NCBI GenBank assembly: GCA_030148425.1 | Contig: JASBTM010000001.1 | Coordinates: 124,001-188,000 of the forward strand | Direction of reading: 5' to 3' | Length of the DNA: 64,000 bases | Origin: Hyphomicrobium sp. | GTDB taxonomy: Bacteria > Pseudomonadota > Alphaproteobacteria > Rhizobiales > Hyphomicrobiaceae | The notes under the pieces: model-generated | Told to the model about the DNA's origin: nothing | Database searches by the model: none | The model's input: only the letters and a program-made list of their open reading frames with translations | Shown here: in pieces, positions 16,488 to 25,495 of the stretch | How the letters are laid out: the number at the start of each line of letters is the position of its first letter | Position numbering within the stretch: position 1 is the stretch's first letter | Position numbers and translations under genes: made by a program

Positions 16488-18002
16488 TCAGTTGGCCAGC
16501 CGGTCCGGAAGCTCGATGCGGAAGCGGGCGCCTTTTTCGGTGTCGACGAGCGTTAGCGAGCCGCCGTGGGCCTGGACAAGCTCGGCTGCGATGACAAGGC
16601 CGAGACCGGTGCCCCCTTTCTTCGTCGACCCCTGGAAGGCCTTGAACAGATTTTCGCGCGCCTTTTTGGGAACGCCGGCGCCGTTGTCCATGACATCGAC
16701 AAACACCCGCCGTCCCTCGCGACGGGCTTCGACGCGGACTTCGCCGTCGGTCTTGCCTTCGACGCTTTCGATGGCCTGAACGGCGTTGCGGATGAGATTG
16801 CTGAGCGCGCGGAAGAGATGCTCGTGATCGGCATCGATGAGAAGCGCCGGGTCGACATTCGCGATGAAGGCGACCGCGCCTTCGCGGGGGAGGCCTTGGC
16901 TGTCCGCGACCTCGTCGACAAGCGGCCTCAGCGGCATCAGCTCTCGCCGAGGGGCCGCTTCGGAAACGCCACCGAACTGCAGGGACGAATTGCAGAACTG
17001 AATGGCGCGGTCGAGCGAGGCGATCAGTTTCGGCACGAAGCGCTGCACGGTCGGATCGGGGATGGCGACGAGACGGTCGGAGATGAGCTGGGCGTTGGCC
17101 AGCATGTTGCGGAGATCGTGGTTGATCTTCGATACGGCCATGCCGAGCTGCGCAAGCCGGTTCTTTTGAGCAAGAAGACTCGAGAGCTGCCGCTGCATGC
17201 TCGCAAGCTCTCGTTCGGCGACGCCGATTTCATCACGTCGGCCAGTGTCCGGCATGATGCGGCTTTGATCTTCGGGGTTTTCCGCGAAGTGCAGCATGTT
17301 CGTCGTGATCTGGGTCAGCGGCTTTACGAATAAGCGGCTGAGGGCGAAGTAGACGACGACAGCCGTCAACAGCGACAGGATAATCGACAGCCAGAGGATG
17401 TTCATACCGTAGCGGATCATCGCCGCCTTGAGCGGGTTTTCCGGAATGACGATCTCGATAAGGCTGTCGTTGTCGGGTCCGCTATGGCCGACGACGCGTA
17501 TGGTGCGATTGCTCGACAGAAGCGTGGTCACGGCATCGCGTGCCTGCTCGAACCGCGTCGACAAGCTCTGCCAGAACGAGGTCGGTTCGGGCGGGAGATA
17601 ATAGATGTAGTCGATCGAGAGATCGCCGTCGGGTGGAAATACAAGACGGCGTTCGCCGGCAGAGCGCGATGCGATCGCCTTCACTTGCGCCGTTCTAAGA
17701 AGATCGGCGCGCAAGGCGGAAGGAATTTGTCCGCCCGGAAAGGCGTCGGACGTCAGGGCCGCGAGCTGGGCTGCCGTCAGTCGCTCCTGCAGCCACGTTA
17801 CGCGGTAGCTGGCGATCGACGGCAGAAAGATCAGGGCTTCCGCGATGAGAACGAACACCGCGGTCAGGATGATGAGCTTGGTTGGAAGCCCGCGGCTTTC
17901 CCAGAAGCGCGCAACAGCATGCCACGGCGCCATCATGCGCGAGGTCGTCTTCCTGGCGCCGGTCTCGTTTTTGTCGTTGCCGTTGAAAATCGCGCGCTGC
18001 AC
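16488..18002 (-). CDS. orphan sensor histidine kinase
   Basis: A 504-residue kinase starting at GTG 18002, with GGAG 11 nt upstream. TM1 is at about 40-62, a ~140-residue extracytoplasmic domain follows, TM2 is at about 203-222, then HAMP, a coiled coil, the H box SKINHDLRNMLANAQLI and a HATPase domain (NLIRNAVQAIE, DNGAGVP, GTGLGLVI). The HDLRN form suggests the HisKA group seen in NtrB-like kinases. No response regulator is adjacent, so its partner lies elsewhere. It is 29 nt downstream of the flavoprotein gene on the same strand and is probably cotranscribed with it. Confidence 0.88.
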   Translation of the reverse strand: MQRAIFNGNDKNETGARKTTSRMMAPWHAVARFWESRGLPTKLIILTAVFVLIAEALIFLPSIASYRVTWLQERLTAAQLAALTSDAFPGGQIPSALRADLLRTAQVKAIASRSAGERRLVFPPDGDLSIDYIYYLPPEPTSFWQSLSTRFEQARDAVTTLLSSNRTIRVVGHSGPDNDSLIEIVIPENPLKAAMIRYGMNILWLSIILSLLTAVVVYFALSRLFVKPLTQITTNMLHFAENPEDQSRIMPDTGRRDEIGVAERELASMQRQLSSLLAQKNRLAQLGMAVSKINHDLRNMLANAQLISDRLVAIPDPTVQRFVPKLIASLDRAIQFCNSSLQFGGVSEAAPRRELMPLRPLVDEVADSQGLPREGAVAFIANVDPALLIDADHEHLFRALSNLIRNAVQAIESVEGKTDGEVRVEARREGRRVFVDVMDNGAGVPKKARENLFKAFQGSTKKGGTGLGLVIAAELVQAHGGSLTLVDTEKGARFRIELPDRLAN

Positions 18003-18031: not shown

Positions 18032-19498
18032 TTAACCGAGCTTCGCCAGCAAGGCGATCACTTTGCGCAAAAAGGGGTTACTCGGAAGTGTTGCAAAGTA
18101 ACGGATGGCCGCCCGTTTGTTGATTTCGGAAAATGTGGGGTAGGGCGATATCCATTGGGTCATCGCCTTGATGTTCAGGTTCTCTGAGATGGCCAGAGAC
18201 CACATCTGAATGAGTTCGCCCGCTTCGGCGCCGACGATGCCCGCGCCCACGATCTGGCCGCGTTTAGTCGTGATGACTTTGATGTGGCCTTCGGTCTTGT
18301 GCTCGATCTGGGCCCGGTCATTTTCATGATAGGGCCAGCGCAGGACATTGACGCGGCCGTGCTTCTCGCGCGCCTCCGTTTCGCTAAGGCCGACGGTTGC
18401 CAGCGCAGGTTCGGTGAACATCACGCGCGGGGCGGTTCGTCCCATTGTTTTTGCCGAGCTGCGAAACAACGAGCGGCGCAGGACCACGTCGGCGTGCTCG
18501 CCCGCGATGTGCGCGTATCGGAGGCCGCCCGCAGCATCGCCAATGGCGAAGACGCGCTTGTTGGTCGTCCGCAGTCCTTCGTTAACTCTGACGGCGGTAC
18601 CCGTCATCTTGACGCCGGCGGCATCGAGGCCGAGGTCAGCGATGTTGGCTTTGCGTCCGGCGGCAACGAGCACCGCGTCGCTTTCGATGGTTTCCGTTTG
18701 CTCGCTGCCAGCGATTTCCAATTCGACCAGGATTTTTCCGACGGTTCCTGAGACGCGCTTGATGCGGGAGGCTTCGCGGATGTCGATGCCTTCGGAAGAA
18801 AGCCGCCCGAGCAGAATAACGGCGAGCTCCGCATCTTCATCGGCAAGAGGATGGGCCTGATCGATCACCGTGACGCGCGATCCGAGCCTGCGATGGGCCT
18901 GTGCAAGCTCGAGGCCCGTCGTACCGGCGCCGATGACGATCAGATGCGGTATCGGGCTCTTGTTATCGAAGATCGTCTCGTTGGTGAAATAGGGCACGTC
19001 GGCGAGGCCGGGGATCGGCGGGATGATGGGCGTGGAGCCGGTCGCGATGACGAAGCGGCGCGCCTTGATACGGTGATCGCCAGCAGCGACGGTCGTCGGA
19101 TTCAAAAATTTCGCAGCGGCTGAGATGACGCGAATTCCCATGCCGCCAAAGCGTTCGACTGTGACGTTCGGGCTGATCTCGGCAATGACGCCTGCGACGT
19201 ATCTATTGACGGCGACGGGGTCGATTTGCGGTTCGGGGACGCGAATTCCGAACAGTGAAGCGGTGCGCACGGCGTGTGCCCGATTGGCGGCCGCAAGCAG
19301 GGCGTTCGACGGGACGCTGCCGTAATTCAGACCGTCGCCGCCCATCTTGTGCTTTTCGATGAGAACGACGCGCTGTCCAAAGGCTGCGGCTGTCGTCGCG
19401 AGGGCGATGCCGCCCGCTCCCGCACCGATGATGCAGAAATCGGTCTCGATGGTTTGCGATGCGGGTGCGTTGTCGACCATATCCTTAGGCATGAACAC
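18032..19498 (-). CDS. dihydrolipoamide dehydrogenase-like flavoprotein lacking the redox-active cysteines
   Basis: A 488-residue class-I pyridine nucleotide-disulfide oxidoreductase by fold: FAD motif IIGAGAGGIALA (about 24-35), NAD(P) motif IVIGAGTTGLELA, second FAD motif RVFAIGDAAGG and a dimerisation domain. In relatives the active site reads GGDCLNYGCVPSKALL; here it is GGDGLNYGSVPSNALL, so both Cys and the following Lys are changed. The C-terminal HPYPT-like motif reads SPYPTFSE. It cannot do the usual dithiol chemistry and may be a flavin reductase or quinone reductase. The start is uncertain: in-frame ATGs lie 2 and 6 codons inside. Confidence 0.85.
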   Translation of the reverse strand: MFMPKDMVDNAPASQTIETDFCIIGAGAGGIALATTAAAFGQRVVLIEKHKMGGDGLNYGSVPSNALLAAANRAHAVRTASLFGIRVPEPQIDPVAVNRYVAGVIAEISPNVTVERFGGMGIRVISAAAKFLNPTTVAAGDHRIKARRFVIATGSTPIIPPIPGLADVPYFTNETIFDNKSPIPHLIVIGAGTTGLELAQAHRRLGSRVTVIDQAHPLADEDAELAVILLGRLSSEGIDIREASRIKRVSGTVGKILVELEIAGSEQTETIESDAVLVAAGRKANIADLGLDAAGVKMTGTAVRVNEGLRTTNKRVFAIGDAAGGLRYAHIAGEHADVVLRRSLFRSSAKTMGRTAPRVMFTEPALATVGLSETEAREKHGRVNVLRWPYHENDRAQIEHKTEGHIKVITTKRGQIVGAGIVGAEAGELIQMWSLAISENLNIKAMTQWISPYPTFSEINKRAAIRYFATLPSNPFLRKVIALLAKLG

Positions 19499-19630
19499 AT
19501 CCAGAAATCGCGAGCCAGGGTATCTACCTTAATACGCCGCTTCGATTTTTTATGCCGAGGTTCAGATGCTATCCCCTGCCGTGAATGCGTCTGGACGCTG
19601 TTCTTGCGGTGCAGGCGCGCTTCGGGCTCG

Positions 19631-19659
19631 TTGACTTGGCCTCAAGGCCCCACTATAAG
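19631..19659 (+). promoter_or_regulatory. sigma-70-type promoter for rpmH-rnpA
   Basis: TTGACT (19631-19636) and TATAAG (19654-19659) are separated by exactly 17 bp. The predicted transcription start near 19666 would give a ~135-nt leader before rpmH. This is the best-matching housekeeping promoter I could see in the window. Confidence 0.65.
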
Positions 19660-19800
19660 GGCCGGAATTCCGGAGACATGTGCAATCGGCTGGGGTTTTC
19701 GCCCAGGCGATGTGTATTTGTTAAGCGTCGGAAAAGTAATAGCAATTTCGCCGTGCGGTCTTTCCAACCCCGGCCATGAGAGACTTGGACGGAGAATTCC

Positions 19801-19935
19801 GTGAAGCGCACATATCAACCGAGCCGCCTTGTTCGCAAGCGCCGCCACGGATTTCGCAAACGCATGCTGACCGCTGGCGGTCAGAAGGTTCTCGCACGCC
19901 GTCGCGCGAAGGGCCGTAAGCGTCTTTCGGCCTAG
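19801..19935 (+). CDS. rpmH: 50S ribosomal protein L34
   Basis: The 44-residue product ([22 protein letters not shown]..., ending AKGRKRLSA) is unmistakable L34. It starts at GTG with GGAG 7 nt upstream and is too short for the ORF track. It is followed by rnpA in the same reading frame, the classic bacterial arrangement. It is part of the large ribosomal subunit. The open frame of rnpA extends back to this gene's TAG stop. Confidence 0.97.
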
Positions 19936-19989
19936 TCGGGGTCGCGTTTAGGCCCCGCTGTCCGCTGTCTGCGGCCCCTGGAGGCTGTC

Positions 19990-20382
19990 ATTCCTATCCT
20001 GCCAACGCTCAAGGCGCGTTCTGAATTCCTCGCTGTCCGCGGCGGGCGGCGTCAATCCACGCCGGCATTTCTCATTGAAATGCGCGAACGGCCCGCGGCC
20101 GCGACACGTCGCGGCGTGCGTGAGGACGGGCCGCGCTTCGGCTTTACGATCACCAAGAAAATCGGAAATGCCGTTACGCGGAACCGTATCCGCAGACGGC
20201 TCAAGGCCGCTTTTGCGGCCGAAACCAAAGCGAAGTCGCTCGGCGCCTGCGATTACGTTATCGTGGCGCGACACGCCGCTCTTGACCGTCCCTTCGAATT
20301 GCTGCTTCGCGACGTGGACAAGGCCATCGTCGCCTTACATGCCGTTAAAGTGGCTCGCGCCGACAAAAAAGGGTCAGCGTGA
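19990..20382 (+). CDS. rnpA: ribonuclease P protein component, no canonical start codon
   Basis: RnpA is the protein cofactor of RNase P, which trims tRNA 5' ends. The track starts at ATG 20080, but the frame is open upstream and encodes the conserved N-terminal strand (LPTLKARSEFLAVRGGRR). The RNP signature RFGFTITKKIGNAVTRNRIRRRLK follows. Between the rpmH stop (19935) and 20080 there is no in-frame ATG, GTG or TTG. GGAGG at 19980-19984 lies 5 nt before ATT 19990, my preferred start (130 aa); ATC 19996 and CTG 19999 are alternatives. The frame is the same as rpmH, separated only by its TAG. Confidence 0.9.
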   Translation: MPILPTLKARSEFLAVRGGRRQSTPAFLIEMRERPAAATRRGVREDGPRFGFTITKKIGNAVTRNRIRRRLKAAFAAETKAKSLGACDYVIVARHAALDRPFELLLRDVDKAIVALHAVKVARADKKGSA

Positions 20383-23080: not shown

Positions 23081-25210
23081 TCAGTGGCCGAACTTTTTCA
23101 GTAACGCAGTGCCGATCGTCATGCCCGTTTCGCCGAACGTTGCGAGCGCGCCGCCGATGACGGCCGCGATCGTCCAGCCGACGACCCGAGCCAGAGCCCG
23201 GCCGATGTTGGCGCGAACTTTCACCTCGACGATCTGATCGGGCAGCGCGGTTTCGGCCGCGACGCCGTCCGTGCCGACCGTCCGAGCCGAGACGATGATT
23301 TGCAGGTCCGACCAGCCGCGATATTGCGGCGTGATCAGGAAGCGCCAGCTGGCGAAATCATCGCTCGAATAGCCCAGATTGCCTTCGATCCACTGCGTCT
23401 CGGGCGAGGCCGATTCGATGAAAAAGCCGCCGTCGGGCGCCCGCAGACGCACCGACATTGCCCTCGTCACGGCGACGGAATGTTGCCAAACTTGGCCGCC
23501 GCCATCGAGATTGTCCGTCAGCGCCTTGATGGAGGCCTTCGCGATGCGCACCTCGGCGCGGACGGTTTTGCCGACACGCATCGCCCGCGGGATGTTTTCT
23601 GCGAGTTGGCCGGTTTCAACAGGCGCGCCCTTGCTGCGCTTTGCTACGCGCCGGGGCTGCGCTGCGGGTTGCTGCGGTGCTGGCGCGCTAGCCGGCGGCT
23701 GTCCCGGGCGGAATGCCGTGTCTTGGCCGGGGTTCGGCCGCGGGCCAGGAACACCTGTCGGCGCGCCGACGGGTGCATGAGGGCCTGCCATCGGGCCGCC
23801 ATGAGAGAGACTCGGGCCGGGGGCACCAAATTGCGGCGAAGCGCCCTGCTGCGGGGGCATCGCGCCTGGGCTTGCGGGGCGCGGTCCGGGCATGCGCGGC
23901 CCACCAAGTCCCGGCGCTGGGGGAATAGGCGGCGGCTGGACGCGCGACGGCTGCGGCCTTGGCGGCAGGTCGAACATCTCCCGCGGTGGGGCGGGGGCGG
24001 CGCCGGGCGGCGGACCTGCCGTTCCTGGCTGGGTCACCGGCGGAATTCCCTGAGACGGAAACGGCAGAGGGAAGGCCGGACCTTCCTGTCTTGGTCCAGT
24101 GGTTTCGGACTGCGGGTGTGAAGGGCGGGCCGGAAGCGGCAGCGACGGCTCGGACGGGAACGATGCAGGGTTCGTGGCGGGTGGGCCTTGGCCTGAGCCG
24201 GGACCCTGCGTGCCGAACGAAGGTTCCGGGCGCTGGGCATTAGGATCGTGGGATGCCGAGAATCGCGGCTCCGGCGCTGTCGCGGGGGCCGGAGTCGGCA
24301 TCTGCGGTGCTGGTGCGGGTCCGGGGGCAGGCCCAGCGGCAGGACGGGATGGCCACGACTCGGTACGGGGTGGCTCCGTCTTCGGCACGCCAAACGGCGA
24401 TTGTTCGGAAACGGTCCCGATGTCGAAGGAATGCGGCGCGGGTGGGCCGATAGGACCGCTGTCGAAGTTCGGCTCGAATGGTTGCGACGGCACGATGTCC
24501 GGGAGCGGAGCTGTCGCCTCGGCAGGCATATCGAGCGACGGGCCTCGGGAAAGAGGCGGTTCGAAAGGTGGTTCGTTCTGGGCGGGCTCTTCCGAAACCG
24601 GATGCGGTGCCGGAGGAACTGGTCGCGGCAGATCCTTCATGATTTCGCGCAGCGATGGGGCGGAGCGCGATTGCACGCGCTCGCGGGCGCGTGCCAAAAC
24701 ATCGTCGGCGACCGGCGGCTGAGCGGCCGGGGGCGGCGTGGGTTCACGTGGCGGCTGAAGAGCGGACTGCAACGCGCGAATGGCATTTTCGAATGTGAGG
24801 CCGTGCGCTTCGAGGATTTCGGCGGCTACGCTTCGCGCGTCGCCGACGATTGCGGCGAGCACAATGGCGCCGTTGATATCGCGGCGGCGGCTGCCTCGCG
24901 AGGCGGCGGCTGCCGCTTCGAGGATGCGCCGCACCTCCGTGGAGACACCAAGGGAATCTTGCGGCACGCCATGCTGCTCAGCGTTTTGCAGAACGCGGGA
25001 GATGACGTCGCCCTTGATCCGCTCGCTGCTGATATGGCTCGCGTCGAGCACCGCAAGAGCGTCCGGGTCGTCACACAGGGCTGCGAGCAAATGCTCAAGC
25101 GAAACCTCCGGCGCGCCCGTGCCTCCGGCGAATTCAGCGCCACGAGCCAATGTCGCCGCTAGCTCCGGCGACATCGGGATCTGCGCAATATCTGTTGCCG
25201 TCACGCCCAC
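23081..25210 (-). CDS. membrane-anchored Clp_N-domain protein with a long proline-rich linker
   Basis: About 709 residues from GTG 25210 (GGGAG 5 nt upstream; GTG 25204 is an alternative; the track's start at 25282 looks too early). Residues 1-150 are a Clp N-terminal double repeat (VSLEHLLAALCDDPDALAVL ... GVSTEVRRILEAAAAASRG...DINGAIVLAAIVG), the adaptor-binding domain of ClpA/ClpB/ClpC. A ~390-residue Pro/Gly/Ala-rich, low-complexity region follows, then a ~120-residue beta-rich domain (VGKTVRAEVRIAKASIKAL ... TPQYRGWSDLQIIVSAR) and a C-terminal hydrophobic helix. There is no AAA+ ATPase. It could tether Clp substrates or adaptors at the membrane. It is convergent with engB. Confidence 0.75.
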   Translation of the reverse strand: MGVTATDIAQIPMSPELAATLARGAEFAGGTGAPEVSLEHLLAALCDDPDALAVLDASHISSERIKGDVISRVLQNAEQHGVPQDSLGVSTEVRRILEAAAAASRGSRRRDINGAIVLAAIVGDARSVAAEILEAHGLTFENAIRALQSALQPPREPTPPPAAQPPVADDVLARARERVQSRSAPSLREIMKDLPRPVPPAPHPVSEEPAQNEPPFEPPLSRGPSLDMPAEATAPLPDIVPSQPFEPNFDSGPIGPPAPHSFDIGTVSEQSPFGVPKTEPPRTESWPSRPAAGPAPGPAPAPQMPTPAPATAPEPRFSASHDPNAQRPEPSFGTQGPGSGQGPPATNPASFPSEPSLPLPARPSHPQSETTGPRQEGPAFPLPFPSQGIPPVTQPGTAGPPPGAAPAPPREMFDLPPRPQPSRVQPPPIPPAPGLGGPRMPGPRPASPGAMPPQQGASPQFGAPGPSLSHGGPMAGPHAPVGAPTGVPGPRPNPGQDTAFRPGQPPASAPAPQQPAAQPRRVAKRSKGAPVETGQLAENIPRAMRVGKTVRAEVRIAKASIKALTDNLDGGGQVWQHSVAVTRAMSVRLRAPDGGFFIESASPETQWIEGNLGYSSDDFASWRFLITPQYRGWSDLQIIVSARTVGTDGVAAETALPDQIVEVKVRANIGRALARVVGWTIAAVIGGALATFGETGMTIGTALLKKFGH

Positions 25211-25495
25211 AACATCTCCCGAAACGAAGGCCAAGACGGGCAAGACTGGCCGAGACTCATTGCGATAACGTGTCCAAAACACATGCCAATGGCAAGGTTA
25301 TAGCAATGACACGGCGGTTGGCAGGCTGGGAATGTCCTTCGTCCCCAGAAGGGCTCATTTGCCTGCGTCAGGACCGCCCGCCGGGCACCGTGCTGGTTAA
25401 ATCCGTTGAGGCCGTCCGCCGAGAGGTTATAAGACCGCGACGAGGCGTCCGGCTCCCCGCCGGCGCGGAGCATTTTTTGATATAGGGGCAGCTTC

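Follow-up and report, generated by a model that had tools for sequence, protein, structure and literature searches.

Repeated joint loss of the redox cysteine pair and of a neighbouring VTT gene in a kinase-linked flavoprotein of Hyphomicrobium and related genera

In a flavoprotein of the disulfide-reductase superfamily found in Hyphomicrobium and related genera, loss of the redox Cys pair has been repeatedly coupled to loss of a VTT gene, and the flavoprotein reading frame and an adjacent histidine kinase gene persist under purifying selection. This pattern suggests that the disulfide chemistry served the VTT membrane partner and that the flavoprotein has a second role. The protein was recognised in a stretch of 64,000 nucleotides from a Hyphomicrobium sp. 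genome (the window), where a Cys-less flavoprotein of 488 aa, with FAD, NAD(P) and dimerisation domains and without CxxxxC, is encoded at 18032..19498 on the minus strand. The open reading frame (19498-18032) starts with GTG, with an alternative ATG two codons on, and is free of frameshifts. As located from the DNA and the alignments, the old redox-disulfide motif spans residues 55-65 (D-G56-LNYG-S61-VPS-N65; 19304..19336, minus strand) and reads GGDGLNYGSVPSNALL, with Gly56, Ser61 and Asn65, at the site where relatives carry GGDCLNYGCVPSKALL. The codons, read unambiguously off the DNA, are GGT for the first Cys position (19333-19331), AGC for the second (19318-19316) and AAC for the Lys (19306-19304), each differing by a single base from a Cys or Lys codon. 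The sole Cys of the protein, C22, lies in the FAD strand and is also present in the relatives that retain the pair. The original prediction that both Cys and the adjacent Lys were replaced, with the FAD and NAD(P) motifs intact and the codons clear, is thus borne out by the DNA, the Pfam matches and the alignments.

The window protein has the FAD motif IGAGAGG (GxGxxG type; residues 24-30, 19409..19429, minus strand), retained by nearly all Cys-less copies, the NAD(P) motif VIGAGTTGLE (residues 188-197, 18908..18937, minus strand) with its IGAGTTG and E197, and also E48, ATG, D213 and the GD motif. Since both sites look intact, the protein is probably FAD-bound and may take electrons from NAD(P)H, with quinone or O2 as a possible acceptor, as in yeast Irc15p. 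Pfam searches rendered Pyr_redox_2 (PF07992, 2e-52) and Pyr_redox_dim (PF02852, 2e-26). The AlphaFold2 model (mean pLDDT 86.9, pTM 0.83) resembles mercuric reductase 5x1y and a large number of lipoamide dehydrogenases, with TM scores of about 0.84-0.93, the top solved structure being 5x1y (MerA; 30% identity, TM 0.87/0.93). By its Rossmann motifs and dimerisation domain, as seen with Pfam and in the comparison of the model with MerA and DLD, the protein has the fold of the flavoprotein disulfide reductase superfamily; it falls outside the corresponding enzyme class, having GxxxxS instead of CxxxxC beside the FAD. Of the 25 best-scoring curated NCBIfam models, none passes its own cut-off. The protein was not assigned to the dihydrolipoyl dehydrogenases (TIGR01350, 312 bits versus a cut-off of 408.8; PYPTFSE, without the His of the His-Glu dyad), to MerA (TIGR02053, 308 versus 454.45 bits; neither CxxxxC nor the C-terminal Cys pair), to the soluble transhydrogenases (210 versus 465 bits; GxxxxS rather than CxxxxT) or to the LpdA-type NAD(P)H-quinone dehydrogenases (209 versus 479 bits). 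Annotation by similarity would name Cys-less copies dihydrolipoyl dehydrogenase or mercuric reductase, a chemistry that is impossible without the Cys pair.

An orthologue was present in all 22 Hyphomicrobium genomes, with the Cys pair gone in 17 of them, complete genomes included, and retained in five. The residues that replace the pair in the genus are diverse (G/S, G/G, N/G, S/G, T/S, D/S, S/T and S/S). A survey of 103 genomes of the family rendered Cys-less copies in seven more genera, among them g42 (seven Cys-less genomes; G/S, D/S, I/T and G/C), g8 (six; A/C, V/C and even P/P) and g5 (S/C and S/S), as well as single cases in G034 (R/C), G115 (S/S), G124 (S/S) and G125 (N/T). The first Cys of CxxxxC, which we take to be the interchange thiol, is gone in every Cys-less case, and the second is retained in seven. 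Other members lacking the pair, which had been proposed as something to look for, are therefore found in 17 of the 22 genomes of the genus and in seven further genera, and the idea of a single odd copy was rejected, as most orthologues of the genus share the loss. The opposite picture, in which all close relatives keep the pair and sister strains show frameshifts, was looked for and is not what these genomes present. Two copies deserve separate mention, L205 (G090) and L211 (G092), in which Pro takes the place of both Cys (GGEPLAHGPVARRAL and GGEPLYYGPLATRAL) and GD has become GE or GR; their frame is still full length and the kinase adjoins.

Relatives in the Hyphomicrobiales and Rhodospirillales show the gene order VTT (PF09335, TVP38/COG0398-type), flavoprotein, histidine kinase, the VTT gene, of about 270 codons, lying directly upstream of the flavoprotein where the Cys pair is kept. 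The window locus belongs to this alphaproteobacterial VTT-linked set, as judged by its yidC/rnpA side, the flavoprotein and the downstream kinase; a search of the locus detected no VTT (PF09335) gene directly upstream, and VTT similarity is gone from the stretch of roughly 580 bp that separates rnpA from the start of the flavoprotein (19499..20079). Among 133 distinct orthologues, CxxxxC is present in 97, of which 94 have the VTT gene and three do not; at least one Cys is gone in the other 36, of which 35 lack the upstream VTT gene (none of the seven one-Cys orthologues and one of the 29 without Cys have it). Parsimony on the kinase tree rendered 10 VTT changes and nine Cys changes. With phylogeny taken into account, a model of correlated loss was preferred over one of independent loss (LR 31.9-33.8, p 8e-9 to 5e-8). 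These p-values were obtained with a simple loss-only Markov model and a single quick tree, and are to be read as strong, not exact. In a coarser test, independent pairs changed in the same direction or not at all, never in opposite directions (sign test, median p 0.03). Both orders of loss fit equally (lnL -44.3 versus -43.7), so that Cys loss could also precede VTT loss. The coupling is visible between sister genomes, G021 keeping both Cys pair and VTT gene and G011 having neither, and likewise G111, G112 and G114 as against G115.

Of the loci that depart from the two common states (INTERMEDIATES), G113 combines an intact CxxxxC with an adjacent VTT gene that has fallen into pieces lying in different frames, and the Cys-less G009 has, ahead of its flavoprotein, a 39-aa remnant of the VTT C-terminus (tblastn E 9e-4; profile i-E 6e-4 over 120 frames). 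Judging from their sequences, this pseudogene and this remnant look like intermediates. Exceptions are G124, which is Cys-less with an open but divergent VTT frame, altered at otherwise conserved VTT motifs as judged by eye, and Rhodomicrobium and G050, which retain CxxxxC with no VTT gene upstream, the Rhodomicrobium VTT gene being on another contig. G064 and G068 were uninformative, their contigs ending at or near the kinase. When 20 Cys-less genomes were searched whole (E 1e-8), a TVP38-type VTT was absent from 16; in the remaining four, the window genome included, it adjoins a second, CxxxxC-bearing paralogue without this kinase.

In the window genome this second paralogue (G000:C16:83665-85089; L162, L169) is 49% identical to the window protein, has an intact CxxxxC and adjoins its own VTT gene, with the kinase absent there. 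Its relatives L161 and L163 have upstream an NADH dehydrogenase-like gene, of SelD N-terminal type by eye. In G125, where the kinase-linked copy is NxxxxT and lacks VTT, a CxxxxC paralogue (L212, contig 64) has neither VTT nor kinase in its flanks.

Codon models gave omega values of 0.09-0.11 for the Cys-less flavoprotein clades, 0.04-0.095 for clades that retain the pair, and 0.055-0.065 for the kinase in the Cys-less clades. All 36 Cys-less frames, in several lineages, are full length and free of internal stops. The Cys-less form is real, recurrent and selected, and the view that it reflects a changed activity rather than decay gains from the Cys-less copies forming clades of full-length proteins at these low omega values. 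At 144 positions conserved in at least 95% of the copies with the pair, the main Hyphomicrobium Cys-less clade shows a majority change at 15, and other clades at 9-31. The positions most often lost are Cys56, Asp55, Gln327, Cys61, Ile105, Gly337, Ala35 and Asp112, several of which fall in the CxxxxC motif or in the QFTH segment that follows the GD motif of the FAD site; on the predicted fold, the lost sites would surround the old active site. Since residues round the motif are lost and omega exceeds that of some groups retaining the pair, constraint is, from the sequence comparison, partly relaxed within an otherwise held protein. The FAD glycines, E48, ATG and E197 are retained nearly everywhere in the Cys-less copies, an NAD glycine (Gly192 or Gly195) is lost in eight genomes, and the Asp of the FAD GD motif in four g8 genomes. 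The intactness of the FAD and NAD(P) motifs therefore holds for the window copy but not throughout, as some lineages show erosion of the NAD(P) motif and even of the GD motif of the FAD site, which speaks against a simple retooled reductase everywhere. As for the supposed loss of three residues, both Cys are gone, but the Lys is kept by 63% of the Cys-less copies; its loss is secondary, partial and lineage-specific, and was rejected as part of one event.

Downstream, after a gap of 29 bp, lies a gene for a membrane sensor histidine kinase of 504 aa (16488..18002, minus strand) whose NHDLRN, N, G1 and G2 boxes are intact; the conserved KINHDLRN, N, G1 and G2 and the HATPase_c match (1e-22) identify it as a two-component sensor kinase. 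It adjoins the flavoprotein in all 36 Cys-less orthologues. The original prediction of a pairing with this kinase, put forward as possibly redox-sensing, was right in that the pairing is conserved, but it is equally so in relatives with the Cys pair and therefore did not arise with the loss. As the neighbour that is retained in every case, the kinase would be the best candidate partner for the retained role, a choice made by elimination given that it also adjoins copies with the pair.

The explanation we favour, with modest confidence, is that of a non-disulfide form of the flavoprotein, clade-wide and selected, whose dithiol would have served the VTT system and which would have been kept for a second role. 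In the ancestral set, NAD(P)H would have reduced the FAD and, through it, the CxxxxC dithiol, which would have acted on a process needing the VTT protein. From what is known of the DedA/VTT family, this process would be related to membrane lipids. Once that process was dropped, selection on the dithiol would have ended and its positions drifted to Gly, Ser, Asn, Thr, Asp, Ala, Pro and others; in some lineages the NAD and FAD contacts would have eroded as well. A second task would account for the retention of the FAD- and NAD(P)H-binding dimer, most likely that of serving the co-encoded kinase as an accessory protein or as a sensing partner. More tentatively, the flavoprotein could by now be a pseudoenzyme or a ligand sensor for the kinase, the two genes being a signalling remnant of a dismantled VTT membrane redox system. 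Disulfide, NAD(P) contacts and then FAD contacts would in that case have been lost progressively, and the kinase would read the FAD/NAD(P)H state or simply need the dimer as a scaffold.

It can also be the case, although we regard it as rather doubtful, that the protein is a working NAD(P)H:acceptor oxidoreductase acting on quinone, O2 or another small molecule, selected for catalysis and not for kinase partnership, the disulfide having been needed for the old substrate only. In its favour, the window copy and most Cys-less copies have undamaged FAD and NAD(P) motifs as well as E197, and Irc15p, with neither Cys, passes electrons from NADH to menadione, DCPIP and ferricyanide and not to disulfides (PMC6296175), as M. 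tuberculosis LpdA, cited there, is a quinone reductase; however, frames are kept in the genomes that have lost Gly192/Gly195 or the GD Asp, and positions 56 and 61 share no substitution across lineages, so that no new active site is visible. Slow decay of a flavoprotein made useless by VTT loss and on its way out is improbable: conserved sites round the old motif do erode, NAD and FAD contacts too in some lineages, and at the thresholds applied G100, an almost complete genome from a Cys-less genus, had no flavoprotein and no kinase, but 36 stop-free, full-length frames at an omega of about 0.10, the many conserved residues that no lineage has changed and a kinase always retained alongside argue for maintenance. 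Still less probable is a soluble transhydrogenase-like enzyme. SthA does pair disulfide loss with transhydrogenation and has Tyr for the catalytic His (PMC9460512), and this family has PYPTxSE, but the CxxxxT signature and the NCBIfam cut-off are both missed, and soluble transhydrogenases keep the first Cys, which every Cys-less copy here has lost. A sequencing, assembly or frame artefact might be suspected in a draft genome that is 85.9% complete; it is refuted by the same loss, with other residues, in independent complete genomes.

Superfamily members lacking redox Cys were already known. Irc15p is a lipoamide dehydrogenase relative which, like the window protein, lacks both redox Cys; it contains FAD, accepts electrons from NADH and passes them to menadione, and does not reduce disulfides (PMC6296175). 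In contrast, it is eukaryotic, one paralogue left from a genome duplication, has a microtubule role, keeps the His-Glu dyad and has no operon context, whereas the present loss has happened in bacteria, in many lineages and along with that of a partner gene. SthA/UdhA, which carries CxxxxT (PMC9460512), has the same fold, no disulfide and the Tyr in place of the catalytic His, but its signature is fixed, in contrast to the free variation at these positions, with invariable loss of the first Cys, in the present family. LpdA, of the same superfamily, lacks one Cys and the His-Glu dyad and reduces quinones, not disulfides (as cited in PMC6296175); here seven copies keep one Cys and most have neither. 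MerA is the closest solved structure and shares a Tyr near the C-terminus, but has the CxxxxC and the C-terminal Cys pair that the window protein lacks.

COG0398 DedA proteins, where fused, are most often fused to a PF07992/PF02852 oxidoreductase, and COG0398/TVP38 DedA-like proteins have been reported as essential in Caulobacter and Dinoroseobacter (PMC10127716). The fusions to the same type of oxidoreductase support a physical tie, and the ancestral VTT and flavoprotein pair looks like an unfused version of them, whereas the window species lacks both the VTT partner and the disulfide at this locus. In the open-licence full texts searched, no paper on coupled VTT and Cys loss and none on TVP38 with dihydrolipoamide dehydrogenase was found, the fusion being mentioned only in that DedA subfamily paper; as far as these searches reach, the recurrent co-loss is new. 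The repeated joint loss provides genetic evidence that it is the VTT protein which the disulfide chemistry serves, and it sets apart a second role, independent of the disulfide, to be sought with the kinase. What makes the case valuable is this coupling, together with the puzzle of why the flavoprotein is retained with the kinase, and the Cys-less orthologues and intermediates provide natural 'disulfide-off' variants for testing VTT coupling.

The last loop of the VTT protein before the final helix (e.g. L052, L057 and L097) has a Cys pair in nearly all Hyphomicrobiales copies, which is probably a periplasmic structural disulfide. As a direct dithiol substrate of the enzyme it was rejected, because Rhodospirillales VTT proteins lack the pair and their enzymes keep CxxxxC, and also because positive-inside reasoning places the loop in the periplasm. 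Loci with the Cys pair often have a DUF547 (PF04784) gene ahead of VTT, at ca. 1.8 kb upstream of the flavoprotein (L057, L095, L101 and about 20 more); none was seen in the Cys-less loci. Elsewhere in the window, positions 23081-25282 (minus strand) encode a 733-aa protein with, by eye, a Clp N-terminal repeat-like N-terminus followed by a long Pro-rich stretch.
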